NCBI RefSeq assembly: GCF_900167435.1
Contig: NZ_FUWS01000005.1
Coordinates: forward strand, 344,893-408,892
Length of the DNA stretch: 64,000 bases
Origin: Marinactinospora thermotolerans DSM 45154
GTDB taxonomy: Bacteria; Actinomycetota; Actinomycetes; Streptosporangiales; Streptosporangiaceae
Reading direction: 5' to 3'
Each line of letters starts with the position of its first letter. Position 1 is the stretch's first letter. The notes under the pieces are model-generated. The model saw only the letters and a list, made by a program, of their open reading frames with translations, was not told the DNA's origin and did not search any database. Shown here one piece after another: positions 13,188-57,870 of the stretch. The position numbers and the translations under genes are program-made.

Positions 13188-14045
13188 TCAGATGATCGGC
13201 GGGCGCCCCACACGGGTCATCCGCCAGGCCGTGGACCACTTGATGGGCGTGCGCGGACCCGCGTCCTCGCGCCATCCCTCGCGGAAGCCCGCGAACCAGG
13301 CCCGCAGCGCCGGACGGGAACGTTCGCGCAGCAGCGTGATGGCCACCCAGGTTCCCAGGTAGCACAGCGCCAGGGGCCAGGGAAGGTTACGCCGGGCCAG
13401 CCAGACCCGGTTGCGGGCGTTGAGCCGGTAGAAGTCCTCGTGGCGGGTCGGGGCCACCGCCGGGTGGTACATGACCGCCTCGGCGTCGTAGACGATGTCG
13501 TAACCCGCGTCGAGGATCCGCCAGGCGAGGTCGGTCTCCTCGTGGGCGTAGAAGAACTCCCCGGGCAGGCCCCCGCCCTGTTCGAAGGCGGTGCGGCGGA
13601 TCGCGCAGGCACCCCCGAGGAAGGTCGTGACCGCGCTGGAGCGCTGGGGGTCCCCCGCCCGCAGCCGCGGAACGTGCCTGCGCTGGTCGGGGCCGCCGTC
13701 GGGGTCGGCGATACGGAAGGAGATGGCACCGAGCCCGGGGTCGGCGGCGAAGCGGTCGTGGACGTGCCGGGCCAGGTCCCGGGAACGGTACCACCCGTCG
13801 TCGTCGAGGAACAGGATGATGTCGCCCGCGCTGGCCTTGACGCCCTCGTTGCGCCCGGCGGGGATGCCGACGTTCTCGGGCAGGCGTAGCGTGACGACGC
13901 CCTCGGGGAGTTCGGGGAGGTCGGCGCCGTTGCCGACGACGACGACCTCGACATCGGCCCCCTCCTGCTGGAGGACACTGTCGATCGCGCGCCGTAGTTC
14001 CGCGGGACGGTTGCCCATCGTCAACAGGACACAGGAGATCTTCAC
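13188..14045 (-). CDS. GT2 family glycosyltransferase
   Basis: A 285-residue GT-A enzyme. The N-terminus ISCVLLTMGNRPAELRRAI is the nucleotide-binding strand. LFLDDDGW carries the metal-binding Asp cluster, and HEETDLAWRILDAGYDI supplies the conserved late acidic motif. The C-terminal part has a hydrophobic stretch (PLALCYLGTWVAITLL) that may touch the membrane. GTG 14045 is preferred, with GGGAGG upstream; ATG 14201 lacks a ribosome site and adds 52 Ser/Gly/Arg-rich residues. Target polymer unknown. Confidence 0.86.
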   Translation of the reverse strand: MKISCVLLTMGNRPAELRRAIDSVLQQEGADVEVVVVGNGADLPELPEGVVTLRLPENVGIPAGRNEGVKASAGDIILFLDDDGWYRSRDLARHVHDRFAADPGLGAISFRIADPDGGPDQRRHVPRLRAGDPQRSSAVTTFLGGACAIRRTAFEQGGGLPGEFFYAHEETDLAWRILDAGYDIVYDAEAVMYHPAVAPTRHEDFYRLNARNRVWLARRNLPWPLALCYLGTWVAITLLRERSRPALRAWFAGFREGWREDAGPRTPIKWSTAWRMTRVGRPPII

Positions 14046-14303
14046 CCGTTGTCCACCCTCCCGACCCGCGCGCGTCCGGCTCTGTTCACCCGCACTGGAG
14101 CCTAGCCCGTCATCCGCCCCACGCGGGCGAAGGGCGGACTGCGCGGAGGGATCGGTGCCGCCGTCCTGCGGACGGGTGTGCGAGGGAGCGGGAGTGGTCA
14201 TGGGAACCGTTCATCCAGGTGGACATCTGGTTGACGACAGTCAACCATTCCACGAATCGGGTAACGAAAAGATAAGGGAAGGTTTCCCGGTGGCCTCCGG
14301 GTG

Positions 14304-14338: not shown

Positions 14339-15109
14339 TCAGTGCAACCGGCGCGACGCCAGCACGCTGATCAGGTGCAGCACCGACTGGAGCGCCGCCA
14401 CGGCGACGCACAGCGCCATGAGCACCTGTGTGGCCAGCAGGTCACCGCGCACCACGTCGACGACGGCGACGACGACCACGATCAGCGACAGCTCCACCGC
14501 CTGGATGATGCGGTGGAAACGCAGCGCCGAGGCGAACTTGCGCGCCAGGCTCAGCCCGGACGAACGCGGCTGGAGGGCCGCCTCGGAGACCTGCTCGCTG
14601 AGCCCGGCCTTGGCCCGGGCGACCACGACGTTGTCCGTCTCGGCCTTGATCAACGCCGCGCCGAGCGCCGCGGCCATGCCCGCGATCACCCAGCCGCCCG
14701 CGTCGAACCCGCCCTGGGCCCGGATGCCCAGGCCGATGAGCAGCGCGATCTCGGCGAGGTAGTGACCGATGCGGTCCAGGTAGATCCCCGCCACGCTCGT
14801 CCGTCCGGTGAAGCGGGCCACCTCGCCGTCGGAACAGTCGAGCAGGAGGTAGACCTGCACGAGCACGGCGGCCAGGAGCGCCGTCCACAGCCCGCCGAAC
14901 GCGAGCACCACACCGGCGAGCACACCGCAGGCCATCATCAGGTAGGTGATGGAGTTGGGGGACGTGCCCATCCGGACGAAGACGGTGCTCACGTACGGCG
15001 AGATGTCCCGCATGTAGAGCCGGCCGGCCCAGTGCTCCTCGTTGCGACGCTCCTTGATCCCGGGGGGCTGCCCCCCGGCGCGGACCTCAGCGACCGAAGG
15101 CTTCGACAT
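14339..15109 (-). CDS. CDP-alcohol phosphatidyltransferase family membrane enzyme
   Basis: Polytopic protein of 256 residues expected to move a phospho-alcohol from a CDP-alcohol to an acceptor, or a phosphatidyl group to an alcohol. The family motif is present as LLDCSDGEVARF followed by GIYLDRIGHYL. The last Asp of the usual D-x2-D-G-x2-A-R-x8-G-x3-D-x3-D is His here. Several membrane helices follow (TYLMMACGVLAGVVLAFGG, SLIVVVVAVVDVV). ATG 15109 overlaps the end of the iron-ADH gene by 23 bases, so translation is probably coupled. With the nucleotidyltransferase and iron-ADH it forms a small pathway. Confidence 0.87.
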   Translation of the reverse strand: MSKPSVAEVRAGGQPPGIKERRNEEHWAGRLYMRDISPYVSTVFVRMGTSPNSITYLMMACGVLAGVVLAFGGLWTALLAAVLVQVYLLLDCSDGEVARFTGRTSVAGIYLDRIGHYLAEIALLIGLGIRAQGGFDAGGWVIAGMAAALGAALIKAETDNVVVARAKAGLSEQVSEAALQPRSSGLSLARKFASALRFHRIIQAVELSLIVVVVAVVDVVRGDLLATQVLMALCVAVAALQSVLHLISVLASRRLH

Positions 15110-16154
15110 ACTCACCCACACTCGCGCGGATGTCCGCCTCGGACAGGTCCAGGTGTTCCAGGATGGTGTAGCGGCCCGGCCGCGTCTCGGGGGCGTAGGC
15201 CACCGCGCGGACGAACTGCTCCTCGTCCAGACCGATGTCCGAGGGGAGGACGGGCAGGTCGTGACGGCGCAGGCAGGCGTGGATGTCCCACATCCGCGTC
15301 TCCCCCTGCCCCTGGTGGCGGTTGCGCAGGAAGTAGGCGTAGAGCGCGCCGATCCCGGCGAGCTCGCCGTGGTTGCTCGTCCCCGGGTAGAGCTGGGTGA
15401 TCGAGTGCAGGATCTCGTGGCAGGCGCCACTGGCGGGACGGCTGGAACCCGCCACCGACATCGCCATGCCCGAGAGCACCAGCGCCTCCGCCAACGCGGT
15501 CAGGAACTCCTGGGAGTCCACCGAGTCGGTGCGGTGCACGATCGCCTCGGCGGCGACCCGCGCGAAGGTGACCGCGATGCCGTCCACCGGCTCGCCCAGC
15601 TCACGGCCGGCCAGCTCCCAGTCGGCGATGGCCGAGAGGTTGCTGATGGCGTCGCCGATCCCCGAGCGGACCAGCCGCTGGGGCGCGGCGCGCACGTAGT
15701 CGATGTCGACGACCACCGCGATGGGCATGGTCACGCCGATCGAGGGTTTGCCCCCCTCGTGCTCCAGGGAGCTGACCGGTGAGGCGATGCCGTCGTGGGA
15801 CAGGTTGGTCGCCACGGCGACCATGGGGATGCCCGCCATCGTCGCCGCGTACTTGGTGACGTCGATCGTCTTGCCGCCGCCGATCCCGGCGACGGCCTCG
15901 TAGGCGCCGGCCCGCAGTTTCTTGCCGAGCTCGGTCGCCGCGTCCACGCTGCCGCCGTCGACCCGGAAGACCTCGCAGTTGGGCAGGTCGAGGTCGGCCG
16001 CGATCTGGGCGCCCTGACCCGGGCCCACGGCGACGGCGATGCGGCCCTCGGTCGCGATCCGGCGGTCGGCCAGCACCGTGCCGAGGTCGGCGATGGCGCC
16101 CCGGCGCACGTCGATCGCGAGGGGGGAGGCGACCATTCGGGCTAGTAGCGGCAT
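15087..16154 (-). CDS. Iron-containing alcohol dehydrogenase family, sn-glycerol-1-phosphate dehydrogenase-like
   Basis: A 355-residue dehydroquinate synthase-like fold enzyme. Seen: nucleotide loop GIGGGKTIDVTKYAA, VATNLSHDGIASPVSS, GIGDAISNLSA with the first metal Asp, and histidines in CHEILHSI and SNHGELAGIGALYAY. This SHDG...SNHG layout is that of glycerol-1-phosphate dehydrogenases (archaeal EgsA, Bacillus AraM) rather than plain alcohol dehydrogenases. It likely reduces a keto-phosphate to a polyol phosphate. ATG 16154 overlaps the nucleotidyltransferase stop by 13 bases and has GGGAGA upstream. Exact substrate not provable from sequence. Confidence 0.85.
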   Translation of the reverse strand: MPLLARMVASPLAIDVRRGAIADLGTVLADRRIATEGRIAVAVGPGQGAQIAADLDLPNCEVFRVDGGSVDAATELGKKLRAGAYEAVAGIGGGKTIDVTKYAATMAGIPMVAVATNLSHDGIASPVSSLEHEGGKPSIGVTMPIAVVVDIDYVRAAPQRLVRSGIGDAISNLSAIADWELAGRELGEPVDGIAVTFARVAAEAIVHRTDSVDSQEFLTALAEALVLSGMAMSVAGSSRPASGACHEILHSITQLYPGTSNHGELAGIGALYAYFLRNRHQGQGETRMWDIHACLRRHDLPVLPSDIGLDEEQFVRAVAYAPETRPGRYTILEHLDLSEADIRASVGEYVEAFGR

Positions 16155-16873
16155 GCGATCTCCCGAGCCCGGGCCAGGTCGTCGTGGTTGTCCACCTCGA
16201 CCCACTCGACCTTGCCGATGGGGGCCACCGCGATCTTGGCGCCGCGGTCGACCAGCTCCTGGTACCCGTCCTCGTAGTAGAGCTGCGGGTCCCGCTCCCA
16301 GGTGGCCCGCAAAGCGTCGGCGAGACGGTCGGCCAGGGTGGACTCGATGAGGGTCGCGCCGATGTACTCTCCGGCCGCGGTGGCCGGGTCCATCAGCTTG
16401 GTGATGCGCTTGAGGTGACCGCTGTCGTCCAGCGTCACCTTCATCTCCTCGTCGGCAAGGCTTTTCACATTGTCCACCGCGAGGAGGAGTTCCGGTCCCC
16501 TGGCGGCGAGTAGCGTCTCCTCGACGGACACCGGGTGGACGGTGTCCCCGTTGACCAGGAGGACCCCCTCGGAGAAGTACTCGCGAGCGGTCCACAGGGA
16601 GTAGGCGTTGTTCCACTCCTCGGCCTTGTCGTTGTGGACCAGGGTCAACTTGACACCGTGGCGACGCTCCAGCGTCTCCTTGCGCTCCTCGACCGCGCCG
16701 GCGCAGTAGCCCACGACGACCACGACGTCGGTGAGGCCGACGGCGGCGAGGTTGCGCAGCGAGATGTCCATGATGGTGGTGTCACCGTCGACCGGCACCA
16801 ACGCCTTGGGCAGGGTGTCGGTGTAGGGGCGCAGCCGGCGGCCCGCTCCCGCGGCAAGAACCATACCGAGCAT
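16142..16873 (-). CDS. Sugar/polyol-phosphate nucleotidyltransferase
   Basis: A 243-residue NTP-transferase. N-terminal signature MVLAAGAGRRLRPYTDTLPK (G-x-G-x-R-x-P plus Lys), metal-site region VLLVNGDTVHP, and C-terminal KVEWVEVDNHDDLARAREI. Length and C-terminus resemble phosphocholine or inositol-1-phosphate cytidylyltransferases rather than glucose-1-phosphate enzymes. Given its coupling to an iron-ADH and a CDP-alcohol transferase, it most likely makes a CDP-polyol. ATG 16873 has AGGAGG about 11 bases upstream. First of three overlapping or closely coupled leftward genes. Confidence 0.86.
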   Translation of the reverse strand: MLGMVLAAGAGRRLRPYTDTLPKALVPVDGDTTIMDISLRNLAAVGLTDVVVVVGYCAGAVEERKETLERRHGVKLTLVHNDKAEEWNNAYSLWTAREYFSEGVLLVNGDTVHPVSVEETLLAARGPELLLAVDNVKSLADEEMKVTLDDSGHLKRITKLMDPATAAGEYIGATLIESTLADRLADALRATWERDPQLYYEDGYQELVDRGAKIAVAPIGKVEWVEVDNHDDLARAREIACRY

Positions 16874-16916
16874 GTAGGCGCCTTCCTCCTTATGTTCCGG
16901 AGGCGTCCATGCCTCC

Positions 16917-17537
16917 TCAATCGTTTGGCGGCTCGTCCGCCGTTCGGGTGACCGGGGTGGCGAGCCAGGTCGCCGCGCTCTCTCGTACGAGCAGTACCAG
17001 CAGGTACCCCGCCAGCAGACCATAGGCGAACGGCAGCCAGCCGAGCGTCCCGCCGGCGGCGATGAGCAGCATCCGCCCGTCCCATCCGAGCATCGCGCGC
17101 GTGATCCAGGAAGGGGGGCGGACTCCGCAGCGTGTGCGGTGCGCGACGTCGCAATGGTGGAGGACGATCGCTGTCAAGAGTACGAACACCAGCGGTCCCG
17201 GTACACCGGATCCTAGGCCGAGCGCGAGCAGGTAAAGATACTCCGTTCCGCGCAGGACCGGCGGGACCATCCAATCAAACCGTCCGTCGTGCGGATGCGC
17301 CGAGGCCACTCCCGAGAGCAGCAGCGCGGCCACCGGTGCGAACAGGGTAATGCCTTGCAGTTCGCCGGGGCCGGCCAGGAGGAGCACGAGGGTGACGAGC
17401 GCGCCGGCCAGAGCCGGCAGCAGCGGCGGCAGGGAACCGGCCACCAGCCGACCGAAACCGTCGCTGAGGTGACCATCATCACGGAGAAGTCGCAGGTCGA
17501 GCCGGTTGGGAGCGGACGGCGGCGCCACCGGGGGCAT
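16917..17537 (-). CDS. Polytopic membrane protein (DUF5941-like)
   Basis: A 206-residue membrane protein with about five hydrophobic helices (LLPALAGALVTLVLLLAG, LFAPVAALLLSGVASA, YLYLLALGLGSG, LVFVLLTAIVLHHCDVAH). I recall the MVPPVLRGTEYLYLLALG, DVAHR and WITRAMLGWDGRMLL patterns from DUF5941 proteins of streptomycetes, which occur with CDP-alcohol transferases. ATG 17537 follows the preceding stop by three bases, with GAGGTGA as ribosome site. No catalytic motif is evident. Probably a membrane partner of the phospho-alcohol module. Confidence 0.75.
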   Translation of the reverse strand: MPPVAPPSAPNRLDLRLLRDDGHLSDGFGRLVAGSLPPLLPALAGALVTLVLLLAGPGELQGITLFAPVAALLLSGVASAHPHDGRFDWMVPPVLRGTEYLYLLALGLGSGVPGPLVFVLLTAIVLHHCDVAHRTRCGVRPPSWITRAMLGWDGRMLLIAAGGTLGWLPFAYGLLAGYLLVLLVRESAATWLATPVTRTADEPPND

Positions 17538-17540
17538 GGG

Positions 17541-18461
17541 TCACCTCGTACGGTCGTGGCCGGACGTCCCGGCGAGGTCCCCCACCACCGCCAGGACGCA
17601 TCCGGCGATCAATGCGATGAAGGTCACCCGCCCGTCCCACACTGTCACGGTGACGGCGATGACCACGAATCGGTGCGTCTGGGGGAACGCGACGATCCGG
17701 CGCAGCAGCCCTGAGGACGCGGGGGCCGCCCGGCGGGGCCTGGGCCGCCCCTCTCCGGCGTTGTCGGCGGACACGGGGGCCTGGGGGAGGGTGGCGATGG
17801 CCCTACGCGCGCGCGCCGTCCTGATCCGCTCCCGTGGCCGGGCGGACCGGGCCCGGCCGGGCCCGGTCTCGCGGTCGTTGCGTCCCGGCGGAGCCGGCCG
17901 GGGCGCCCCCAGGATCTCGTTGGCCAGCGACTGGTCGGAGGGGGAACGCCCACCGGGCCGGCCGGGGTCGAGGGCGTCGAGCGGGGTGGCCGGGCGCACG
18001 GCGTGCTCGGAGTTCCGCGAGGGGAGGACCGGCCCATCTGGCGACGCGGTGGAGGACATGACGACCGATTCGCGCAGCGCGTGCGCGATCAGCGCCCCCG
18101 CCGCCCACGTCCAGGCCCCGGGGATCCCGGCCGCCACGGCACCGGCCGCGACCCCCGCGTAGACGACGTACTCGCGCAGGACGCGCAGCACCGCGCGGAA
18201 CCAGGCGGTGAAGGCGTCACGACGGGCGCGGCCCAACTCCGCCCCGACCGCGTCGGCGAACCACGCGGCGGCGAGCAGGAGGGAGCCGAACAGCGCGCCG
18301 CGCGGCCCCGGTTCGCTGAACCACACCGCGGAGAGCCCGCACAGCAGTAACCCGATCCAGGCCAGGCGGGCCGGCGCGAGCGAGCGGCGGGCCACCCAAC
18401 CGGCGGCGCCGCGGGTCACGGGACGCAGCAGGGACACGTCATCCGCGGCGGTCTGCGTCAC
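17541..18461 (-). CDS. Membrane protein resembling a degenerate CDP-alcohol phosphotransferase
   Basis: A 306-residue protein with an N-terminal membrane half (LAWIGLLLCGLSAVWFSE, LFGSLLLAAAWFADAVG, EYVVYAGVAAGAVAAGI). A long Arg/Pro-rich cytosolic stretch follows (about 165-245), then a final membrane pair (FVVIAVTVTVWDG, FIALIAGCVLAVVGDL). The helix spacing and AWFADAVGAELGRARR recall the D-x2-D-G-x2-A-R region of CDP-alcohol transferases with most acidic ligands lost. In relatives this part and the next gene product may be one protein. GTG 18461 has GGGAGAGGGG upstream. Function not assigned. Confidence 0.7.
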   Translation of the reverse strand: MTQTAADDVSLLRPVTRGAAGWVARRSLAPARLAWIGLLLCGLSAVWFSEPGPRGALFGSLLLAAAWFADAVGAELGRARRDAFTAWFRAVLRVLREYVVYAGVAAGAVAAGIPGAWTWAAGALIAHALRESVVMSSTASPDGPVLPSRNSEHAVRPATPLDALDPGRPGGRSPSDQSLANEILGAPRPAPPGRNDRETGPGRARSARPRERIRTARARRAIATLPQAPVSADNAGEGRPRPRRAAPASSGLLRRIVAFPQTHRFVVIAVTVTVWDGRVTFIALIAGCVLAVVGDLAGTSGHDRTR

Positions 18462-18676: not shown

Positions 18677-19471
18677 TCAGGCGGCCTTGCCGTCGCCGCC
18701 GGACTTCTTCTTGCGGGCCTCGATCTCGGCCTGGGTGTCGGCGTTGTAGGCGGCGAGGGCCGAGGTGATGTCGGTGTCGGCCACCAGCGAGCCGTCCTTG
18801 ATGTAGAGGCCGCGGTTGCAGAACCGCTTGAGGTCGCCCTCGTTGTGGGAGACCAGCACCATGGTGCGGTCGTTCTCCAGCATCTTCTCGATCGTGTCGT
18901 AGCACTTGCGGCGGAACGCCTTGTCCCCGACCGCCAGCACCTCGTCGACCAGCATGATGGGGTGCTGCAACTGGGAGATGAGGGCGAAGCCCAAGCGCAC
19001 CTTCATGCCGCTGGAGTAGTGCCGCACCGGCATGTCGATGTAGCCGGAACGCAGCTCGGCGAAGTCGACGATCTCCTGGAACTTCTCCTCCAGCATCTTC
19101 GGCGTCATGCCGTGCAGGGAGCCGACCAGGTTGACGTTCTCGCGCCCGGTCAGGTCGTCGGAGAAGCCCGCCCGCAGCTCCAGCAGGGGGGCGATCTTGC
19201 CCCGGACCGTGACCTCGCCCTCGTCGGGGATGAGCACACCGGCGATGAGCTTGAGCAGCGTCGACTTCCCGGTGCCGTTCTTGCCCACGATCCCGACACA
19301 GTCGCCCTTGGCGACCTCGAAGGAGACGTTGCGCAGGGGCCAGAAGTCCCCCCCCTTGTTGGGGTCGCGCTTGCTGCCGTGGATGAACATCTCCCGCAGG
19401 CTGAGCCTGCGCCGCCGGTTCATGGCGAACTTGACGCCGAGCCCTTTGGCCTCGATCACCGGCTCCGCCAT
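18677..19471 (-). CDS. ABC exporter ATPase, polysaccharide/teichoic acid type (TagH/Wzt-like)
   Basis: Cytoplasmic ATPase of 264 residues that powers export of lipid-linked glycopolymers. Walker A GIVGKNGTGKSTLLK, signature YSSGMKVRLGFA, Walker B IMLVDEVLAVGD and switch His in VLVSHN are intact. The N-terminal SLREMFIHG before the core and the RGKIAPLLELRAGF segment are typical of TagH/RfbE exporters. There is no long C-terminal substrate-binding domain, only a short Lys-rich tail, so polymer recognition is probably by the permease. Its ATG overlaps the permease stop by one base. Confidence 0.94.
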   Translation of the reverse strand: MAEPVIEAKGLGVKFAMNRRRRLSLREMFIHGSKRDPNKGGDFWPLRNVSFEVAKGDCVGIVGKNGTGKSTLLKLIAGVLIPDEGEVTVRGKIAPLLELRAGFSDDLTGRENVNLVGSLHGMTPKMLEEKFQEIVDFAELRSGYIDMPVRHYSSGMKVRLGFALISQLQHPIMLVDEVLAVGDKAFRRKCYDTIEKMLENDRTMVLVSHNEGDLKRFCNRGLYIKDGSLVADTDITSALAAYNADTQAEIEARKKKSGGDGKAA

Positions 19472-20289
19472 TACAACTCCTTCAGGACGGCCGTCTCAAG
19501 ACGCCGGAACGTCAGGTATCCGATCACGAACATGATGAGCGCCCCCGCGACCGTCGACCACAGGATGAACTGGGTCGGCTGCTCCGTGGGGAACCACACC
19601 GCGTGGTGCATCTGGAAGATGCCCACGAGGGGGTTCATCTCGTACAAGGTCTTGAACCAACCAGGGATCCGTTCGGATTCCATGACTTGGAACATCGGAT
19701 AGATGATCGGCGAAGAGTAGAACAGTACGCGGTTCAGGATACGAACGATTCGCTGCACGTCGCGCAGGAGCACGTTGAGCGACGCCAGGAAGAGCGTGAT
19801 CCCCAGGGTGAACACGAACTGGACCGCGATGGCCACGGGCAGCCACAGCAGGGTCCAGCCGGTCTGTCCGCCCAAGACGATGACGAAGAGCAGGAGCACC
19901 GGCCAGGTCAGCAGGTACTCGATGAACTTCGTCTGCACCACGGCGAGCGGGAAGATCTCCCGCGGCACCTTCATCGTGGTGATGAGCTTGGCGTGGGTGA
20001 TCAGCGCGCGGCTGGCGTCGTTGAGCGCCGTGCTCATCCACATCCACGGCAGGATGCCCGACAGCAGGAACAACGCGTACCCGCCCGGCGCGTCCTCGCC
20101 TCCCGGCGCCACCCTGGCGTTGAACAACACGCCGAAGACGAAGAAGTAGATCGCCGCCTGGGCGAGCGGGTCCAGAAGCGACCAGGCGTAGCCGAGGATC
20201 GACTTCTGGTACTTGACCTTCAGTTCTCGCCTAACCAGGAGGTTAACTACCTGCCGGTTCTGCCAGACGGCAAGCGCCCTCGACGCCAC
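19471..20289 (-). CDS. ABC-2 type polysaccharide exporter permease (TagG/Wzm-like)
   Basis: A 272-residue integral membrane protein with six predicted helices. Typical start RRELKVKYQKSILGYAWSLL, then IYFFVFGVLFNAR, YALFLLSGILPWMWMSTAL and C-terminal NPLVGIFQMHHAVWF with YLTFRRLE. It forms the export channel with the ATPase at 18677. GTG 20289 is chosen because GGAGGAGG stands just upstream; the alternative at 20331 lacks one. The divergent cytidylyltransferase begins 450 bases away. Confidence 0.92.
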   Translation of the reverse strand: MASRALAVWQNRQVVNLLVRRELKVKYQKSILGYAWSLLDPLAQAAIYFFVFGVLFNARVAPGGEDAPGGYALFLLSGILPWMWMSTALNDASRALITHAKLITTMKVPREIFPLAVVQTKFIEYLLTWPVLLLFVIVLGGQTGWTLLWLPVAIAVQFVFTLGITLFLASLNVLLRDVQRIVRILNRVLFYSSPIIYPMFQVMESERIPGWFKTLYEMNPLVGIFQMHHAVWFPTEQPTQFILWSTVAGALIMFVIGYLTFRRLETAVLKEL

Positions 20290-20739
20290 CGCCACCTCCT
20301 CCGGGATGCAGTCGTAACTAAGCGGTCGCACGGCTGGGGGACGTCACCGCGGGATCCGGGACGGACGCGGCACCGCGGGAAGCGGGGCCACCGGCGACGG
20401 GCCTGAGACGAACCTTGGTGCGCCCGTGTCACGGGGCACCAGCGCGCCATTGGGCCACACAGGCCGCGGTACGGCGCGGTTCAGGGGTGAAAGGGTGTCA
20501 TGGGGGAACGGGTGAGCCTCGGATCACCGGCCTCGGTGCGGCCGGGGCGGCCGGAACTCGACGTCCGATCTTTCCACATTCGCGGACCGAACACCCATCC
20601 AGGCGTCCTCAGCGTACCGGTCGGCGGGGCCGGGCGGACCCCCCAGGGGGGATTGTTCGAGCATCGTTGCCCTGGTGTGTCCCCTCTCCCGCGGCGAGGT
20701 GGGCTACCCTCGGCCTTCGACCGTGGAAGAGAGGATCCC
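20290..20739. other. Divergent intergenic region between exporter and cytidylyltransferase
   Basis: No gene is seen. The region should contain promoters for both flanking genes. On the plus strand TACCCT at 20705-20710 is a possible minus-10 box, about 30 bases before the start codon, without an obvious minus-35. Confidence 0.5.
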
Positions 20740-21498
20740 ATGTCGACGGAGTCGGTTCCGGCACGCCAGGCGCGTCCTCGGGTGACGGCCGCGGTGCTCG
20801 CCGGCGGGGTCGGTACGCGCATGGGCGGGGACCGCCCCAAGCAGCTCCTGTCGCTGGCCGGCAGGCCGATCATCGAGCACTCCATCGCGGCGTTCTGCTC
20901 CGCCCCCGAGGTGGACGACGTGATCGTGTTGATGGTCGACGACCATCTGGCCGAGGTGGAGAAGATCGTCGCCGAGGGCGGCTACGGCAAGGTGTCCCGG
21001 ATCCTTCCCGGCGGCGCCACGCGCACCGACACCTCCTGCGCGGCACTGCGCGCGCTGGAGGGACGGCCCGGGGAGGAGCTGGTGCTCCTGCACGACGCGG
21101 TCCGGCCGCTGGTGAGCGGGCGGACCATCGCGCGCTGCGTGGCGGCGCTCGGCGAGGCCGGCGCGGTGGGCGTGGCGGTGCCCTCGACCGACACCGTGGT
21201 GGAGGCCGAGCTGGGACCGGACGGCCGTGAGGTCCTGCGCGGTGTCCCCCCGCGCGCGTCGCTGCGGCGCATGCAGACGCCCCAGGGGTTCCGCCTCGAC
21301 GTGATCCGGCGCGCCTACGAGCGGGCGCTGGCCGATCCGGGCCTGGTCGCCACCGACGACTGCGGCGTGGTGCTGCGCTACCTGCCGGACGAGGAGATCC
21401 GGCTGGTGCAGGGCGAGGAGGCCAACATCAAGGTGACCCACCCGGGTGACCTGGCCGTCGCCGAGGCCCTGTTGCGCGAGCGCGGGGAGCCGGCGTGA
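20740..21498 (+). CDS. IspD/TarI-family cytidylyltransferase
   Basis: Transfers CMP from CTP to an alcohol phosphate: 2-C-methylerythritol 4-phosphate (IspD) or ribitol 5-phosphate (TarI). Length 252. CTP loop LAGGVGTRMGGDRPKQLL, LHDAVRPLVS and QTPQGF are seen. PSTDTVVEA and EEANIKVTHPGDL resemble TarI-type enzymes, and ispF does not follow. Its neighbours are a teichoic-type exporter and a glycerophosphodiesterase, so ribitol-phosphate polymer synthesis is a serious alternative to isoprenoid synthesis. ATG 20740 has GAGAGGA upstream. Confidence 0.85.
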   Translation: MSTESVPARQARPRVTAAVLAGGVGTRMGGDRPKQLLSLAGRPIIEHSIAAFCSAPEVDDVIVLMVDDHLAEVEKIVAEGGYGKVSRILPGGATRTDTSCAALRALEGRPGEELVLLHDAVRPLVSGRTIARCVAALGEAGAVGVAVPSTDTVVEAELGPDGREVLRGVPPRASLRRMQTPQGFRLDVIRRAYERALADPGLVATDDCGVVLRYLPDEEIRLVQGEEANIKVTHPGDLAVAEALLRERGEPA

Positions 21499-22247
21499 CC
21501 TTCACCGCGCCCGAGGTGATCGGGCACCGCGGCGCCGGACGCGGCACCGTGGACGGCCTGCGGGAGAACAGCGCCGAGTCGTTCGCCGCCGCGGTCGCCG
21601 CGGGGGCGACCTGGGTCGAGATCGACGTGCGGCGCAGCGCCGACGGCGTCCTGCTGATCCACCACGACGCGGCCCTGGCGGACGGACAGGCCATCGTGGA
21701 CCTGCCCGCCGCCGAGGGGCGCAGGGCCGGCCTGCTCACCCTGGAGGAGGCGCTGGAGGCGATCCCCGCCGACATCGGGCTGGACGTCGACGTCAAGACC
21801 GTGATGGAGGACGCCTCCGACCCGAGGGAACGGCGCACCATGACGCTGCTCCTCCCCCACCTGCGGCGCGAGGCGCGGCGGCGCCGCCTGTTCGTATGCT
21901 CCTTCGACCCGGCCGTCCTGCTGGCCGTCCAGGCGGAGGCACCGGGGATCCCCACCGCCTGGATGCCGTTCGTGCGCAATCCGCTCGACCAGGCCGTGGC
22001 CGGAGCAGCGGGGCTGGGCTGCCAGATCGTGGCGATCGACGCGCGCTCGTTCGGGCTGGCCGGCGATCCACCCCGGCCCGGCCGCCGGACGGTGGACTAC
22101 ACCGTGGAGGTCGCGCATCGGGCGGGCCTGGAGGTCGTCTCGTGGTGCCCCGGTCCGGCCGACGCCGCCCGCTTCGCCGCGGCCGGCGTCGACGCGGTCG
22201 TCGTCGACGACGTCGCGGGCGTGGTCGCGGCGCTGGACGGACGCTAG
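21495..22247 (+). CDS. Glycerophosphodiester phosphodiesterase
   Basis: TIM-barrel hydrolase of 250 residues. Conserved HRGA with EN (residues about 7-27), EIDVRRSADGVLLIHHDAAL carrying the metal and catalytic residues, and C-terminal GLEVVSWCPGP with DAVVVDD. It releases glycerol 3-phosphate from glycerophosphodiesters. No signal peptide, so cytosolic. GTG 21495 overlaps the cytidylyltransferase stop by four bases (GTGA), so translation is coupled. This pairing hints at turnover or supply of polyol phosphates for a wall polymer. Confidence 0.92.
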   Translation: MTFTAPEVIGHRGAGRGTVDGLRENSAESFAAAVAAGATWVEIDVRRSADGVLLIHHDAALADGQAIVDLPAAEGRRAGLLTLEEALEAIPADIGLDVDVKTVMEDASDPRERRTMTLLLPHLRREARRRRLFVCSFDPAVLLAVQAEAPGIPTAWMPFVRNPLDQAVAGAAGLGCQIVAIDARSFGLAGDPPRPGRRTVDYTVEVAHRAGLEVVSWCPGPADAARFAAAGVDAVVVDDVAGVVAALDGR

Positions 22248-50720: not shown

Positions 50721-52520
50721 TCATCTGGAGGCGCCGTACCGGGCCTGCGCCCCTTGGGTGATGACCTGCTCCGACTCCTTGATCGCGGCGCTGACGGCGT
50801 CGGCGTCGCGGCCCTTGTACCAGGGGCACATCTCGACCAGGGTGGGCTGGGCGGCCGTGGCGAACAGGAGGGCCTCGCCCTTGGCGATCTGGCGGATCTC
50901 CGAGCCCTGCATGATCTCCTGCCTGCGCACCTGGACGGAGTGGTTGCCCTTCCCGTCGCCGTAGCTGAAGGAGCCCGTGGACACGTCGTGCTGGCCGATG
51001 AGCTTGGACAGCGCGTCGACGATCTTGTGGTCGTCCAGGCCCGCGCCGAAGACCTTCACGGTCGCGGCCGACCACATGGCCTCCATCCCGTTCTCCGTCC
51101 ACACGCGCACGCCCTGGCGGTAGCTCTGCAGGATGGTGACGGGGATGATCCCGCGCGATCCGAGGTGGGAGTACAGGTCCGGGAGGTCGGCGATCTTGCA
51201 GATGTTGGCGGCCTCGTCGAGGACGGCGACCAGCGGCGGGTCGAGCCGGCCGCCCTGGCCCTCCGATGCCTCCTCACCGGCGATGAAGATGGCGTCGGTC
51301 ATGGCGGCGATGAGCGGGGCGGCGGCCGAGCGGGACTTGCTCAGCAGGTGCAACGTCTGCTTGGAGGCGACGAAGGAGCGGGGGTCGAACTCGTCCAGGT
51401 TCCCCTTCGCGGGCGGGTTGACCCACTCCATGATCTCGGGGTCGTCCAGGCAGCGGGCCGCCGTCCGCGCGGTCGTGTAGATGCCGTCACGGGTCTCGCT
51501 GACGATGTTCTGGGTCTCGCGCAGCGCCTCGGCGTAGGCGACGAACCCGTGGTCGAACAGGATGTCGACGGGGCGCGTGTGCTTGGCGTCGTGCAGCCAC
51601 TCCCCGACCGTCGCCAGGGATTCGCCGTCCAGCGCCGCCGCGAGGATCAACTGGGAGATGAGGGTCTTGGCGGCCGGGCCCCACATGTCCTTCTTGGAGT
51701 CGTCGTCGATGGTCAGCACGAAGTGGCCGGCCAGGCGGTGCGCCACCTCGACCGTGTCGACTCCGCGCAGGGGGTTCCACCAGAACTCCTGCGGCTGGTG
51801 GGTGATGCGCTGCGGGTCGAACAGCCAGACCCGCTCCCCGGTGCGCTCCGCGCGGATCTTGGCGGTGGCGGCCCAGACGTCGCCCTTGTTGCTGGTGGCC
51901 AGGGCCGGGCCGGGGGCGGCGAGGACGTAGGGGATCGCCATGCCGGTGGTCTTGCCGGCCCGGGGCGCCATGTAGGCGAGGATCGTGTCCTCCCAGGAGG
52001 CGAAGAGGGTCGGCCCCGCGGGGCCGCGGGGCTGCTTGATCTTCCCGATGACCAGGCCGACCTCGTCGTCGGAGAGCGACTTGGCCTTGCGGCCGGCCAG
52101 CGTGCGCCTGCGCAGCCGCAGGGCCTTCTCGGCCGCCTGGGGACGGGCGAGCTCGGCGACGGTGTCGTCCCCCTTGTTGAGGGCGGCCACGGGGTCGCCC
52201 TCGCGCCCCCGGTACTTACCGATCGCGCGGAAGATCAGGATGAGCGCGCCCAGCAGGAGAGTGGCGATCACGGCGAAGACCGCGACGACCAGGGGAGTGG
52301 GGACCTCCGGCCAGGTGCTCGCGGTGTCCCAGGTGAACAGGCCGAGGATCCAGGACACCCCGAACCCCGGCACCTCCGCCCCGGTCATGGCTGCGGCGAC
52401 GCGCGCCGACAACCAGAACAGCCACACCAGTAGTACCGCTCCCCACAGGGCGACGAGGGCGAACAGGGGGCTCGCCGCCGCCGACAGGCCGCTGCCGCGC
52501 GGCTGGATCCTTTTTCCCAT
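50721..52520 (-). CDS. VirD4/TraG-like type IV coupling ATPase
   Basis: A 599-residue membrane-bound ATPase expected to feed DNA or protein to the secretion channel. Two N-terminal helices (about 17-38 and 76-100) are followed by Walker A APRAGKTT (185-192), FDPQRI, and Walker B VAVLDEAANI (431-440). The C-terminus has ILQSYRQGVRVW and EIRQIAKGEALLFA, typical of TraG/TraD motor domains. Start ATG 52520 has GAGGGA upstream. It lies nine bases after the VirB4-like gene, so it is in the same operon. Confidence 0.92.
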   Translation of the reverse strand: MGKRIQPRGSGLSAAASPLFALVALWGAVLLVWLFWLSARVAAAMTGAEVPGFGVSWILGLFTWDTASTWPEVPTPLVVAVFAVIATLLLGALILIFRAIGKYRGREGDPVAALNKGDDTVAELARPQAAEKALRLRRRTLAGRKAKSLSDDEVGLVIGKIKQPRGPAGPTLFASWEDTILAYMAPRAGKTTGMAIPYVLAAPGPALATSNKGDVWAATAKIRAERTGERVWLFDPQRITHQPQEFWWNPLRGVDTVEVAHRLAGHFVLTIDDDSKKDMWGPAAKTLISQLILAAALDGESLATVGEWLHDAKHTRPVDILFDHGFVAYAEALRETQNIVSETRDGIYTTARTAARCLDDPEIMEWVNPPAKGNLDEFDPRSFVASKQTLHLLSKSRSAAAPLIAAMTDAIFIAGEEASEGQGGRLDPPLVAVLDEAANICKIADLPDLYSHLGSRGIIPVTILQSYRQGVRVWTENGMEAMWSAATVKVFGAGLDDHKIVDALSKLIGQHDVSTGSFSYGDGKGNHSVQVRRQEIMQGSEIRQIAKGEALLFATAAQPTLVEMCPWYKGRDADAVSAAIKESEQVITQGAQARYGASR

Positions 52521-52529
52521 GTCCGTCCC

Positions 52530-54119
52530 TCACAACCTCATCGCCTGGTCGGTGTCGTAGAGCCATTCCTCGTCGCGGGTGAGCGCCATCTGGACCGGGA
52601 TCCCCAGACGCTCCGCGCCGGTCTTGATCAGGTACTTGCCGCGCCCCGGGTGGCGCGCGCCGGGCTGCCAGGAGTCCGGCGACGACCAGGACGCGACGAG
52701 CGCCTGCTCGGGGCCGGTGAGCGGGGTGATCTGGTGGACGCTGGCGAGCTCGCGCGGCGGCAGCCCCGCCATGACGAGGATCGCGCTGCGGTCCACGAAG
52801 CCCCGGGCCTTGGCCCGGTCCTCCTCCGTGGCCAGGGCCTCCAGGTCCGACAGGGAGTGGGTGACCATGATCGAGGCCATGCCCTTGGAGCGGTTGAGGC
52901 GGGTGAGCGAGTCGGCGTACTCGACCAGGCCGGGGGCGCCGCGCAGCGCCCGCCACAGCTCGTCCATGACGCCGAGGAAGGAACGGCGGGGCGCGAGCCC
53001 CGCGTCGGCCAGCGCCTGCGCGGCGTCGACCATGCCGAACCCGTAGCTCCAGGTGCACAGCATCGCCGCGGTGAGCAGTTTGTCGCCGGCCGCGCCGACC
53101 CTGCTGATGTCCACGCTGACCGCGGGGCTGTCCAGGTCGAGCGGGGTGGTGGTCTGGTCGTCGAACACTCCGGCCAGGGATCCGGCGACGAGGAGGCGCA
53201 GGGTGAAGATGAGGTCGTCGACGCGGCCGTCGTAGCGCAGGTCGTCGCCGGCGCGGGCCATGGACCGCAGTTCCTGCGGCCCCTCCTCGATGATCTTGAG
53301 AACGTCGACGACGGTGGGCTGGCGCTCCTCGCCGAGCCGCGCGTCCAGCAGGTCCACCGCGGTGCCGAGGATGACCTCCTCGGCGTTGCTGATGGGGCCT
53401 TCGCGGACCAGCGTGCACAACGCCATGAGCAGGGAGATCCGCCGCCCGCGGACCTCCCAGCGCAGCTTCTCGCCGTCGGGGCCGCTCATCCTGCGCACCA
53501 CCGATCCCAGCGGGCCGGAGTCGAGGGGGTTGATCCGGTCCAGGCCCCGGCCGATGCGGATCACCTGGCCGCCCAGGTGCCGCACCAGGTCGGAGTAGTC
53601 GGGCTTGGTGTCGCCCAGGACGAGGGTCTTGGTTCCCGTCGCGATCGACCCGGTCACCAGGCGCTTGACAAACGTCGACTTGCCGGTTCCGGGCTGACCG
53701 AGGACGAAGACGCCCGGGTTGGTGACCAGGCCGGCCCGCAGCCAGGCCAGCGGGTCCATGCAGACGACCTCGCCGGAAAGCTGGTCGCGTCCGATGGGGG
53801 TGCCCACGGAGGGCGGTTTGCTGCTGGTCACGAACGGGAACAGGCCGCAGGCCTGGGTCGTGGTGGCCTGGTACTCGGGCACCGAGCAGATGTTGGGGGA
53901 ACGTCCCCCTGATCGGTGGGCCCACCCCATCATGGGGGGAAGCTGTTCCCTCTCCTTCTGGTCGACGAAGGAGCCCGGGTCGGGCCCCGTCGGCTTCGAC
54001 CGGCCGACCCCCTTGGCCGCCTTGGGGGCTTTCGCCGCTTTGATCCTTTTGGCGGGTCGAGGGGACCGCTTCTCGCGGGCCGCCTCGTCCTCGCCGCGTT
54101 CTCGTCCACGCCTGGGCAC
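52530..54119 (-). CDS. VirB4-like conjugation ATPase
   Basis: A 529-residue cytoplasmic ATPase. A Lys/Arg-rich N-terminus (1-45) precedes GVFVLGQPGTGKSTF (Walker A 141-149), LGDTKPDYSDLV, Walker B FLGVMDELWR (381-390) and VTHSLSDLEALATE. It has only the motor half of a VirB4; the N-terminal half may be supplied by the upstream SCO6880-type protein. GTG 54119 has GGAGGG upstream. It probably drives pilus or channel assembly. Confidence 0.88.
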   Translation of the reverse strand: MPRRGRERGEDEAAREKRSPRPAKRIKAAKAPKAAKGVGRSKPTGPDPGSFVDQKEREQLPPMMGWAHRSGGRSPNICSVPEYQATTTQACGLFPFVTSSKPPSVGTPIGRDQLSGEVVCMDPLAWLRAGLVTNPGVFVLGQPGTGKSTFVKRLVTGSIATGTKTLVLGDTKPDYSDLVRHLGGQVIRIGRGLDRINPLDSGPLGSVVRRMSGPDGEKLRWEVRGRRISLLMALCTLVREGPISNAEEVILGTAVDLLDARLGEERQPTVVDVLKIIEEGPQELRSMARAGDDLRYDGRVDDLIFTLRLLVAGSLAGVFDDQTTTPLDLDSPAVSVDISRVGAAGDKLLTAAMLCTWSYGFGMVDAAQALADAGLAPRRSFLGVMDELWRALRGAPGLVEYADSLTRLNRSKGMASIMVTHSLSDLEALATEEDRAKARGFVDRSAILVMAGLPPRELASVHQITPLTGPEQALVASWSSPDSWQPGARHPGRGKYLIKTGAERLGIPVQMALTRDEEWLYDTDQAMRL

Positions 54120-54135
54120 GCTAGGCCCTCCTCTC

Positions 54136-55614
54136 CTACCAGCCGTTGAGCCGCTGGAGCAGCCAGGGCGGGCAGATCCCCAGCGGAAGTGTGGTGGCGA
54201 AGGCGACGTCCTGGCTGCCCCAGGCGCGCCGCAGCCGGATCCGGGAGGATTCGGCCGCCGATTCGGTCTGGGCGATGGCCCCGGGCAGTTTCTCCTCGTC
54301 GGTGACGGTGACCGTCACATACATCGACATCTGGACGAGACCGGCGCCCATGCTCTCCTCGCGGGCCGCCTGGGCCGCCCGTTCCTCGTCTTGCCGGTCG
54401 CGGGCACTGACCTGGTGGCGTACCCGCCGGCTGAGCTCGGACCTGTACTGCGCGGCGGTCCGCTGGCTCTCCAGGGTCGCCGCCGCGCTCGCCGCGGGCC
54501 AGGGGCGGTAGAGGAGCGTGGTGCGCTTGGTGTAGCGGGTGGGGGCCAGCAGTTTGGCGAGCACGCTGGAGGTCACGTTGGTGCGCGGCGCCTCCTGCCA
54601 CACCCAGGCGACGCTGACCCCACCGTCGTGCCGGTAGTGGTCGTGGAAGATCTCGGCTCCCATGGGGCCGGCGTCGGCCCAGTCGTCCGTGCGGATCGTC
54701 TCGGGGTCGGTCGTCAGAAGGCGGTTGGTCTCGCCGCGGGCGTCCGGCTCGTAGGCGTTGCGGACGGTGGCCACCAGGTGCTGGGGGGTGGACCGGCCCA
54801 GGACGCTGACCCCGCAGTTGCCCAGGGAGGCCTCCAGCTCGTTGAGGTAGTTGCCGAGCTCCGCCACCGCCTCCAACCGGGTCTTGGGGGCCGCGGGGAA
54901 CTTACGGGGGTCGAAGGTGATCGACACCCGGGTCTCGACGTTGGCGCTGACCGCGGGGGCCGCGGCGACGAGGTCGTTCATGATCTTGTGCGCCTCGGCC
55001 GGAGCCTGGGGGTTCAGGGTCGACAGCACCTGGTCGCGCAGCGTCGAACCGGGGTCGGGCGCGGTTTCGACCGTGACGGCGACCCAGGAGACCCAGGGCA
55101 TGTAGCCGAGCCGGGCGAGCCAGGCGTGCCAGTTGGCGACCCAGGTGTCGACGTCGTGCGACTCGGCCAGCCAGGTGGAGTTGGGCGCGGTGCGCAGGGT
55201 CGCCGTCATGTGCCCGGTCCGCCGGTGCCAGGCGACCCCGTACCTGCCGCCACGGCCGTCCTCGACGTCGAGCAGGGAGATCGGGGCGAGGATCCCGGGG
55301 AGCTGGAAGGCCCGGGGGTGCTCGATCATGACGCCGGCCTGGTACTTGGAGTGTCCCTTCATCCGGGTGAGCCACCAGCGGAAGCGGGCGGCGCTCCAGG
55401 CGGCCAGGGACTCCCCCTGGACGGGGATCGCCATGAAGAGGGCGGCGAGGAGGAAGGGCGGAGCCAGGTAGAGCAGCCAGGCGGGGTTGATCGACGCGGC
55501 GACGACCAGGACGATGAGCCCGCCCATCAACCCCAGCGTCGCCCCCAGACCGAGCCCCGCGATGCCGATGCTGCGCTGTTTGCGCCAGCCGCCGTACATG
55601 CGTGGTTGCGACAT
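54136..55614 (-). CDS. SCO6880-type membrane protein of type IV secretion loci
   Basis: A 492-residue protein with two N-terminal helices (IAGLGLGATLGLMGGLIVLV and LYLAPPFLLAALFMAI) and a large cytosolic domain. I recall the PRMYGGWRKQRSIGI opening, DRTGHMTATLR-like strand and WQEAPRTNVTS as features of SCO6880-family proteins. The helix pair resembles VirB3, and the rest resembles the N-terminal part of VirB4, so a VirB3-VirB4(N) arrangement with the ATPase in the next gene is inferred. ATG 55614. Separated by 16 bases from the ATPase gene. Confidence 0.85.
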   Translation of the reverse strand: MSQPRMYGGWRKQRSIGIAGLGLGATLGLMGGLIVLVVAASINPAWLLYLAPPFLLAALFMAIPVQGESLAAWSAARFRWWLTRMKGHSKYQAGVMIEHPRAFQLPGILAPISLLDVEDGRGGRYGVAWHRRTGHMTATLRTAPNSTWLAESHDVDTWVANWHAWLARLGYMPWVSWVAVTVETAPDPGSTLRDQVLSTLNPQAPAEAHKIMNDLVAAAPAVSANVETRVSITFDPRKFPAAPKTRLEAVAELGNYLNELEASLGNCGVSVLGRSTPQHLVATVRNAYEPDARGETNRLLTTDPETIRTDDWADAGPMGAEIFHDHYRHDGGVSVAWVWQEAPRTNVTSSVLAKLLAPTRYTKRTTLLYRPWPAASAAATLESQRTAAQYRSELSRRVRHQVSARDRQDEERAAQAAREESMGAGLVQMSMYVTVTVTDEEKLPGAIAQTESAAESSRIRLRRAWGSQDVAFATTLPLGICPPWLLQRLNGW

Positions 55615-55635
55615 GGTGAAGGCATCCTTCGGTGA

Positions 55636-57153
55636 TCAGTTCTGCTCTTGGGTCGAGCCCGCGGCCTCGTGCCCGAACTCGCTGGCGGCGTTGAACGCCT
55701 GCTGGGTGACGTTGCCCCAGTCGGGTGCGGTACCGCCTCCGCCGTTGCTCGGGGGAGCCGCGCCGGTGGTCGGCGCCGCGGGGATCGGTCCCCCGCTCCC
55801 CTCGCCTCCGGCCGGCGGGGCACCGGTCGCCGGTGGAGCCCCCGTGGAGGGAGGCGACGATCCGGTCGGCGGGGCACCGGTCGCCGGCGGGGCCCCCGTG
55901 GAGGGAGGCGACGATCCGGTCGAGGGAGAGGAGGAGCCCTCGGGCGAGGGGGAGTCGGTGGAGGGGTCGGCGGGACCTCCCCCGTTCTCTCCCGGGGGAG
56001 CCGATCCCGTCTTGGCGCCCGGAGGCTGGGGCGCGCCACCGCCCCCACCGCCTCCGCCGCCTCCGCCGGGGAACCCTCCCGACATGTCCCCGAGGTTGCC
56101 GGCGATGGTGCCCGCTTGGCCGCCCGCGGCTCCCGCCGCGGCGCTCGTTCCCCCGGTCGCCACCGCCATACCGACCCCCGCGGCCGCCCCGGCGATCGCC
56201 GGGGCCGGGTTGCCGAGTCCGCCGACGTGGCCGACGGTGAAGTCGAAGAGCTTGACCATCACCGGCATGGCGAGCAGGGCCAGGCCGATGATCATGACCC
56301 CCATCGTCATGTTGTAGGCGAGGTCGACGAGGTCGGCCCCGGTCACCCCTTCGGCCTCCTCGTTCTCGGGCAGCATCAGCGACTCGGGGGTGACGTCGTC
56401 ACCGGCGGCGCTCCCCGATCCGCCGTCCAGGAGGCTGAATCCCACCCACATGACGAGGACCGCGCAGGGTTTGTAGAAGATCAGGGCGAGCATCCACCCC
56501 GTGATCTTCTCGAACCACTTCGTGCCGGGGATCATCTTGCCGACCGCCGCCAGGGGGAGGACGCCGGCCAGGACGAGCAGCGAGGCGTCCCGCAGGATCA
56601 TGAAGATCATCTGGACGAAGACGAAGAGGACCCCCAGCAGGGCGACGATGATCATGAAGAAGGCGTAGGCGAGGTACTGGAGGACTCCCTCGGCGATGCT
56701 CATCTTCTCGCTGAAGACCTGGGTGTCGATGATGTCTCCGACGAACATCATCGAGAAGGAGTCGGAGAAGGAGATCATCGCCCCGGCGATCCCCAGCCCG
56801 AGAAGGGTCGTGATGACCAGGGTCAAGATGCCGGAGAGCATGTTCATCATCGGTTCCACCCGGCGCATCAGCGCGAGCCGCGCCGCGGCCGCGAGGATGC
56901 CGCCCACCGCGATGATGCCGACCAGGGGCATGAGCGAATCGTTGAGGCTCGAGACGATCGAGTCCTCACTTCCTCCGGAAGGCATCCCGGAGGGGATCAG
57001 GGACTGCGTGTCGAGGTCGATCGTGGGCTTCATCGCCCAGCCGACGAGGAACATCTTGAGCATGCTCAAGAAGGAGTTGAGTCCGATCGTGGCGAGGCTG
57101 GCGACGCCTTCGCCGACCCAGTCCTCAACAGAACCGAACAGGGCATCAAACAC
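55636..57153 (-). CDS. Polytopic VirB6/TrbL-like membrane protein with Pro/Ser/Gly-rich tail
   Basis: A 505-residue protein. About eight membrane helices lie in residues 10-330 (LMPLVGIIAVGGILAAAARL, ILTLVITTLLGLGIAGA, YAFFMIIVALLGVLFVFVQM, VMIIGLALLAMPVMVKLF). TrbL/VirB6 proteins form the inner-membrane core of the channel. The last 150 residues are Gly/Pro/Ser-rich, with a Gly run and an exactly repeated 18-residue unit (SSPPSTGAPPATGAPP). GTG 57153 follows GTGAGG; codons to 57225 look like leader. Confidence 0.86.
   Translation of the reverse strand: MFDALFGSVEDWVGEGVASLATIGLNSFLSMLKMFLVGWAMKPTIDLDTQSLIPSGMPSGGSEDSIVSSLNDSLMPLVGIIAVGGILAAAARLALMRRVEPMMNMLSGILTLVITTLLGLGIAGAMISFSDSFSMMFVGDIIDTQVFSEKMSIAEGVLQYLAYAFFMIIVALLGVLFVFVQMIFMILRDASLLVLAGVLPLAAVGKMIPGTKWFEKITGWMLALIFYKPCAVLVMWVGFSLLDGGSGSAAGDDVTPESLMLPENEEAEGVTGADLVDLAYNMTMGVMIIGLALLAMPVMVKLFDFTVGHVGGLGNPAPAIAGAAAGVGMAVATGGTSAAAGAAGGQAGTIAGNLGDMSGGFPGGGGGGGGGGGAPQPPGAKTGSAPPGENGGGPADPSTDSPSPEGSSSPSTGSSPPSTGAPPATGAPPTGSSPPSTGAPPATGAPPAGGEGSGGPIPAAPTTGAAPPSNGGGGTAPDWGNVTQQAFNAASEFGHEAAGSTQEQN
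55814..55921 (-). repeat. Two 54-bp tandem repeats in the VirB6/TrbL-like gene
   Basis: Units 55814-55867 and 55868-55921 differ at only three positions or fewer and encode 18 residues each in the Pro/Ser-rich tail. Confidence 0.85.
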
Positions 57154-57231
57154 GGAACACCTCACCGAGGGCCGGCGGCCGGATCGACTGGGAGGCCGGT
57201 CTCCACGGGAGAGACCGGTTCTCAAGGGTCA

Positions 57232-57858: not shown

Positions 57859-57870
57859 CCCAACGGGCGT

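Follow-up and report, generated by a model that had tools for sequence, protein, structure and literature searches.

Which product would a homologue of the archaeal glycerol-1-phosphate dehydrogenase (G1PDH) serve in a bacterium, when its gene overlaps those of a nucleotidyltransferase (NTase) and a cytidine diphosphate (CDP)-alcohol phosphotransferase (CDP-AP)? This question is raised by a 64,000-nt stretch of the Marinactinospora thermotolerans DSM 45154 genome (contig NZ_FUWS01000005.1, positions 344,893 to 408,892; hereafter, the window), in which the G1PDH homologue is a member of the iron-dependent alcohol dehydrogenases (Fe-ADH). sn-Glycerol-1-phosphate (G1P) is treated as a hallmark of archaea, and where G1PDH genes occur in bacteria, they have been taken to indicate archaeal-like lipids. 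For example, Streptomyces was placed among the bacteria that possibly make such lipids on the basis of homologues of archaeal genes (PMC6431249). The gene structures around homologues of this kind were reported to be uninformative (PMC5059525), and CDP-1-glycerol was judged likely to be absent in bacteria in a 2021 paper (PMC8262930). One Streptomyces syntenic region containing araM, tagGH, a nucleotidyltransferase gene and a CDP-alcohol phosphotransferase gene has been linked to teichoic acid (PMC13118837). We found no biochemical role assigned to the cassette in the open-access literature.

Based on homology, gene order and co-occurrence, we propose that the cassette probably converts glycerol phosphate of the archaeal enantiomer into CDP-1-glycerol, which would go into a wall polymer that contains glycerol phosphate. 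In the proposed pathway, Fe-ADH would reduce dihydroxyacetone phosphate (DHAP) to G1P, as its homology suggests, and NTase would join G1P and cytidine triphosphate (CTP) into CDP-1-glycerol, as suggested by the operon structure and its family. Co-occurrence and linkage point to a TagF/TarF-type glycerophosphotransferase as the enzyme that would transfer the G1P units; its gene is located elsewhere in the same genome (contig C19) and beside the pair in some relatives. From the neighbouring genes, a family 2 glycosyltransferase (GT2) would then extend the chain, TagGH would export it and LCP proteins would anchor it. Thus, the module would stand in for the TagD/glycerol-3-phosphate route to CDP-glycerol, and the key prediction is that the stereochemistry of the glycerol is opposite to that in TagD-made polymers. 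The first-pass annotation had proposed reduction of a keto-phosphate followed by formation of a G1P-type CDP-polyol. This is the best-supported reading, through the G1PDH assignment and the adjacent NTase, and it is a prediction from sequence. The use of G1P to make CDP-glycerol for cell-wall polymers appears to be a role not previously assigned in bacteria. If the cassette makes CDP-1-glycerol, much of the Actinomycetes would possess a G1P economy that serves the wall and not the membrane.

The dehydrogenase and its conserved partner

Judged by sequence and predicted fold, Fe-ADH is a homologue of G1PDH, which is its nearest characterised relative. It scores 247 bits against the NCBIfam G1PDH model NF002022 and 71 against the glycerol dehydrogenase model, and the enzymes of two relatives score 240 and 262 bits against NF002022. 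The best match in the Protein Data Bank by phmmer was Methanocaldococcus jannaschii G1PDH (3e-46), which was also the top Foldseek match (TM-score 0.83/0.88) of the AlphaFold2 model (pLDDT 93.5). In both searches this enzyme outranked the characterised glycerol dehydrogenases; a Clostridium structure titled 'glycerol dehydrogenase' (3ce9) scored close behind it. The motifs SHDGIASP, SRPASGACH and HGEL are present and are conserved across relatives. Residues D121, H246 and H262, the putative metal ligands, align with the metal ligands of G1PDH and are invariant in 33 relatives' sequences. From the sequence, we infer that the enzyme is specific for DHAP.

NTase contains the fold motif of NTP transferases (LAAGxGxRLRP...PKAL), and its nearest solved relatives are LicC (1jyk), PntC (6pd1) and Thermotoga maritima IPCT (4jd0). 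No close paralogue was found in the same genome. Because enzymes of the COG1213 kind act on diverse phosphates (PMC12275187), we took the substrate of NTase from its partner Fe-ADH. From the operon structure and family, NTase is proposed to be a CTP:sn-glycerol-1-phosphate cytidylyltransferase. Alternatively, NTase might activate an unrelated phosphate such as phosphocholine, a phosphonate or phosphoglycerate, and the dehydrogenase might have a separate purpose. Cytidylyltransferases of COG1213 are indeed known for phosphocholine, inositol-1-phosphate, phosphonates and phosphoglycerate. However, the adjacency of NTase and Fe-ADH is near-invariant and the pair occurs even without the remainder of the cassette (loci L064 and L088), and we consider this alternative very unlikely. 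A role in phosphonate biosynthesis was considered because NTase resembles PntC; it is unsupported, no search for PepM having been made.

The cassette is not rare. Full-length Fe-ADH (E ≤ 3e-118) is encoded in 120 of the 121 genomes of the order, including that of the window, and, across the class Actinomycetes, in 60 of 246 genomes; many Streptomyces have a copy. Of 49 family loci, 45 have NTase immediately upstream of Fe-ADH, and the two genes mostly overlap or abut. Because of this retention in the order, the frequency in Streptomyces and the adjacency of NTase, the arrangement exceeds chance by far. The pair is kept in Nocardiopsis relatives, Streptosporangiaceae, Thermomonosporaceae, Micromonosporaceae and Streptomyces, and the cassette is near-universal in several actinobacterial families. 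GT2 accompanies Fe-ADH in 34 of the 49 loci. The recurrent gene order is NTase, Fe-ADH, CDP-AP and GT2 with TagGH upstream or downstream; in some loci, the order is NTase, Fe-ADH, TagG and TagH. Glycerophosphodiester phosphodiesterase (GDPD) is also encoded close to the pair in other families, and again in L064, a distant locus.

Several loci depart from this order. In L088, from a genome of the Streptomyces family that carries Fe-ADH twice, the second NTase and Fe-ADH pair stands alone between the genes for RNase E/G and an Obg-like GTPase. A Nonomuraea locus (L101:7932-8981) possesses an extra Fe-ADH copy with no NTase adjoining. In L054 and L083, Fe-ADH, GT2 and a CDP-AP that lacks the fourth aspartate (D4) of its catalytic signature are present with no recognisable NTase adjoining; in these loci the activating enzyme is encoded elsewhere or is of another type. 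A more distant G1PDH-like clade (L055-L063; approximately 36-43% identity) often has its own COG1213 NTase upstream, and some of its members have CDP-alcohol phosphotransferases on the opposite strand with D4 intact.

A probable supply of CDP-glycerol for wall polymers

We compared the presence of Fe-ADH with that of the CDP-glycerol glycerophosphotransferase domain of TagF/TarF-type enzymes (PF04464) in the 246 Actinomycetes genomes. PF04464 was found in 57 of the 60 genomes with Fe-ADH and in 36 of the 186 without it (Fisher 3e-27; the counts are phylogenetically non-independent and the test is uncorrected for relatedness). All nine family labels that bear Fe-ADH include PF04464 genomes. In contrast, TagD (called at E ≤ 1e-30) was found in 18 of the 246 genomes and in none of the 60 with Fe-ADH; no genome possesses both. 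Among the PF04464 genomes, TagD was present in 0 of 57 with Fe-ADH and in 11 of 36 without it. In four genomes PF04464 is 4.5-9.5 kb from Fe-ADH, and in L064, which belongs to another class of the phylum, the genes for GDPD, a TarF-like transferase, NTase and Fe-ADH are adjacent. The M. thermotolerans genome encodes both a TagGH exporter and one TagF-like protein, which is nearest to TarF (glycerol; 308 bits, versus 107 for the ribitol enzyme TarL). In the same genome we found no TagD over the cut-off and no spare TarI, only a single IspD. PcrB/GGGPS was absent from this genome and from all 246 Actinomycetes genomes, and the positive controls were found. This pattern, together with L064 and the TarF-like protein in a genome with no TagD over the cut-off, argues that Fe-ADH and NTase offer another way to obtain CDP-glycerol, in its G1P form, and that wall polymers rather than ether lipids are supplied by it.

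The missing PcrB bears directly on the idea, put forward for Streptomyces, that G1P goes into ether lipids of the archaeal type; this genus was listed with homologues of all three archaeal genes (PMC6431249). We rejected archaeal ether lipids as the product: the idea is largely contradicted by the PcrB result, the context of the cassette is that of wall-polymer export, and we regard it as extremely unlikely. A wall polymer as the destination of CDP-1-glycerol is suggested by the TagGH, GT2 and LCP neighbours and by the co-occurrence with TagF/TarF. Nocardiopsis walls contain glycerol-phosphate and ribitol-phosphate polymers, and Streptomyces possesses a polyglycerolphosphate lipoteichoic acid and a structurally similar wall teichoic acid (PMC6801904, PMC3196553). 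Clear LtaS orthologues were reported to be lacking from actinobacterial genomes (PMC3196553). If our proposal is true, the cassette would be a source for the glycerol-phosphate teichoic and lipoteichoic acids of Streptomyces and Thermobifida relatives.

CDP-alcohol phosphotransferases with altered signatures

The class I signature of this superfamily contains four aspartates (DxxDGxxAR...GxxxDxxxD). CDP-AP reads D91xxD94G95xxA98R99...G108xxxD112xxxH116, with histidine at the D4 position. Among 82 unique CDP-APs of the cassette, this position is histidine in 65, alanine in 17 and aspartate in none, and the remaining signature residues are invariant. The fourth aspartate is the likely catalytic base, and its replacement in the M. 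tuberculosis enzyme (D93N) nearly abolishes activity (PMC4634129). It is kept by the six other CDP-OH proteins of the M. thermotolerans genome. Further polar residues of CDP-AP are invariant (D159, R165, R190, E206 and D218) or nearly so (K155 and E157, in 33 of 34), and these may compensate for the absent D4. The best phmmer match was AF2299 (3e-8), and the model (pLDDT 90) has a six-transmembrane fold for which Foldseek ranked AF2299 (4q7c) first, with DIPPS and PIPS also among the top hits. The donor pocket of AF2299 accommodates CDP-glycerol (PMC4634129). Thus, CDP-AP descends from a CDP-alcohol phosphotransferase and may work like one, but a feature by which the active family is defined is missing.

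The earlier assignment of the final transfer to this protein is not supported as written, given that no cassette copy has D4. Of the two destinations offered there, a lipid or a polymer, a wall polymer gains support, but not with the neighbouring CDP-AP as the transferase. CDP-AP probably binds CDP-1-glycerol and most likely either puts G1P on a special acceptor or became an accessory subunit. It is doubtful, but conceivable, that CDP-AP takes G1P from CDP-1-glycerol and passes it to an acceptor for which a general base is unnecessary, for example undecaprenyl phosphate, which would yield a glycerol primer linked through a lipid pyrophosphate. If true, wall polymers would be primed by a chemistry that is new, as would be this type of reaction in the superfamily, and bacterial G1P would feed it.

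The window encodes a second CDP-alcohol phosphotransferase in which the motif has decayed. It shares 29% identity over 282 residues with an intact copy (L098; E 8e-19 in a small sequence set). This protein is intact in Streptomyces and most Streptosporangiaceae, and the motif was lost in the clade of the window. In Streptomyces it is fused to DUF5941; for example, L051:10086-11486 carries PF01066 and PF19365. In Streptosporangiales, the DUF5941-linked copy shows a graded loss of the catalytic motif with the gene retained (L097, L105 and L106): D4 is replaced by glycine in two loci, the motif is partial in L097, and it is absent in the clade of the window. We rejected the idea that the two proteins form a catalytic pair, in which one lends D4, because the second copy of this clade also lacks the motif. 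For Streptomyces, the pair is an attractive idea.

Several points weigh against a G1P-derived CDP-glycerol for the wall. CDP-AP lacks D4. The 247 bits of Fe-ADH are under the curated equivalog cut-off of NF002022 (413). CpgD, a COG1213 enzyme, yielded no product from G1P (PMC12275187). PF04464 is present with neither supply route in 25 genomes, and the co-occurrence counts come from related genomes. Ribitol phosphate is found in some Nocardiopsis walls (PMC6801904). Finally, Micromonosporaceae combine NTase and Fe-ADH with a different CDP-AP, in which D4 is intact in 27 of 27, and no TagGH was detected within approximately 6 kb.

Two of these points would fit a dehydrogenase with a different keto-phosphate as its substrate, such as a pentulose phosphate, and CDP-ribitol or another CDP-polyol as the eventual product: the score under the cut-off and the ribitol teichoic acid, which is known in Nocardiopsis metallicus (PMC6801904). 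The lack of a spare TarI is in line with this as well. However, in both sequence and fold Fe-ADH resembles G1PDH most closely, by a clear margin over other Fe-ADHs, the TagF-like proteins fit TarF much better than TarL, and GDPD genes are neighbours; we consider this route improbable. The Micromonosporaceae loci fit a different end product, namely that CDP-1-glycerol or a similar CDP-polyol goes into a small phosphodiester or into the head group of a phospholipid, on the model of archaeal glycerophosphoinositol or di-myo-inositol phosphate synthesis, and that the linkage to TagGH is incidental. The structures closest to CDP-AP, AF2299 and IPCT-DIPPS, use soluble donors. Against this, TagGH, GT2 and LCP genes recur near the cassette outside Micromonosporaceae, PF04464 accompanies nearly all Fe-ADH genomes, and D4 is missing from the cassette CDP-AP. 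This explanation is unlikely, although it keeps some weight. In L168-L195 (mostly Micromonosporaceae), L080 and L111, the different CDP-AP with D4 follows NTase and Fe-ADH, and neither TagGH nor GT2 was detected in the flanks. Here the same activated alcohol possibly ends up in another product.

Known systems and surroundings of the cassette

Our proposal of a G1P-fed wall polymer was compared with known systems. The archaeal glycerophosphoinositol route of Archaeoglobus AF2299 combines a cytidylyltransferase-like domain and the CDP-alcohol phosphotransferase nearest to CDP-AP in sequence and fold, and an A. fulgidus cytidylyltransferase activity favours G1P (PMC8262930, PMC4634129). In contrast, the cassette is bacterial, consists of separate genes, lacks D4 and has teichoic-type export and glycosyltransferase neighbours. 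IPCT/DIPPS, the di-myo-inositol phosphate synthase, shares the pairing of a COG1213-type NTase and a CDP-alcohol phosphotransferase, and both cassette proteins match NF041135 weakly. However, the cassette genes are unfused, D4 is absent and the coupling is to a G1PDH homologue instead of inositol-phosphate synthesis. Bacillus subtilis AraM-PcrB, which leads from G1P to heptaprenylglyceryl phosphate, also involves a bacterial G1PDH homologue, but the cassette lacks PcrB, ties its dehydrogenase to a cytidylyltransferase and has a dehydrogenase only 22% identical to AraM when the folds are aligned. The TagD-TagF pathway for poly(glycerol phosphate) wall teichoic acid shares CDP-glycerol, a TagF/TarF-type transferase and TagGH export with our prediction. 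The differences are the absence of TagD, a non-homologous NTase, the opposite enantiomer predicted for glycerol phosphate, and a TagF-like gene usually outside the cassette. The pneumococcal CDP-2-glycerol pathway is similar in that a LicC-like NTase and a glycerol-forming reductase are encoded in a capsule locus; it differs in using glycerol-2-phosphate, another gene set and another transferase.

The genome is 5.66 Mb, and its nearest named relatives in the scan were Streptomonospora and Nocardiopsis. As had been annotated, the cytidylyltransferase-like, G1PDH-like and CDP-alcohol phosphotransferase genes overlap, as confirmed by the open reading frames (ORFs) and Pfam matches; the overlaps are 13 nt (NTase and Fe-ADH) and 23 nt (Fe-ADH and CDP-AP). 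Positions 14339-18461 contain five ORFs, all on the minus strand, but the unit extends in both directions, in the order TagG, TagH, second CDP-alcohol phosphotransferase, DUF5941, NTase, Fe-ADH, CDP-AP and GT2. One of the two membrane partners noted earlier is thus a DUF5941 membrane protein, and the other proved to be the decayed phosphotransferase.

Features of the cassette and its flanks (positions in the window)
Feature	Coordinates	Strand	Basis
GT2 glycosyltransferase, final cassette gene	13188-14201	-	Glycos_transf_2 6e-17
CDP-AP, six-transmembrane type, 256 aa	14339-15109	-	PF01066 28 bits
Fe-ADH, G1PDH homologue, 355 aa	15087-16154	-	Fe-ADH_2 5e-27
NTase, LicC/IPCT-like (COG1213-type) cytidylyltransferase, 243 aa	16142-16873	-	Pfam NTP_transferase 3e-12, NTP_transf_3 6e-11
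DUF5941 membrane protein, 206 aa	16917-17537	-	PF19365 1e-27
Second CDP-alcohol phosphotransferase, motif decayed, 306 aa	17541-18461	-	Comparison with relatives; no Pfam match
TagH-like ABC exporter ATPase	18677-19471	-	NCBIfam teichoic acid export ATPase models 7e-54, 8e-46, both below cut-off
TagG/Wzm-like ABC exporter permease	19471-20331	-	ABC2_membrane 6e-10; galactan/capsule export permease models
GDPD, possible accessory	21495-22247	+	PF03009 6e-24

The unit is surrounded by a wall-glycopolymer locus that encodes UDP-GlcNAc 2-epimerase, a UDP-sugar dehydrogenase, GT4 glycosyltransferases and an LCP protein. We considered whether the IspD-like gene at 20500-21498 might encode a ribitol cytidylyltransferase and rejected this; the genome has no other real IspD, and the product is most likely an isoprenoid enzyme outside the cassette. 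At 50721-58173, also on the minus strand, the window encodes a TraG/VirD4-type coupling protein, a weak TraG P-loop match and a candidate TrbC/VirB2-like pilin. This block, in part of which the GC content is lower, probably serves type IV secretion or conjugation.

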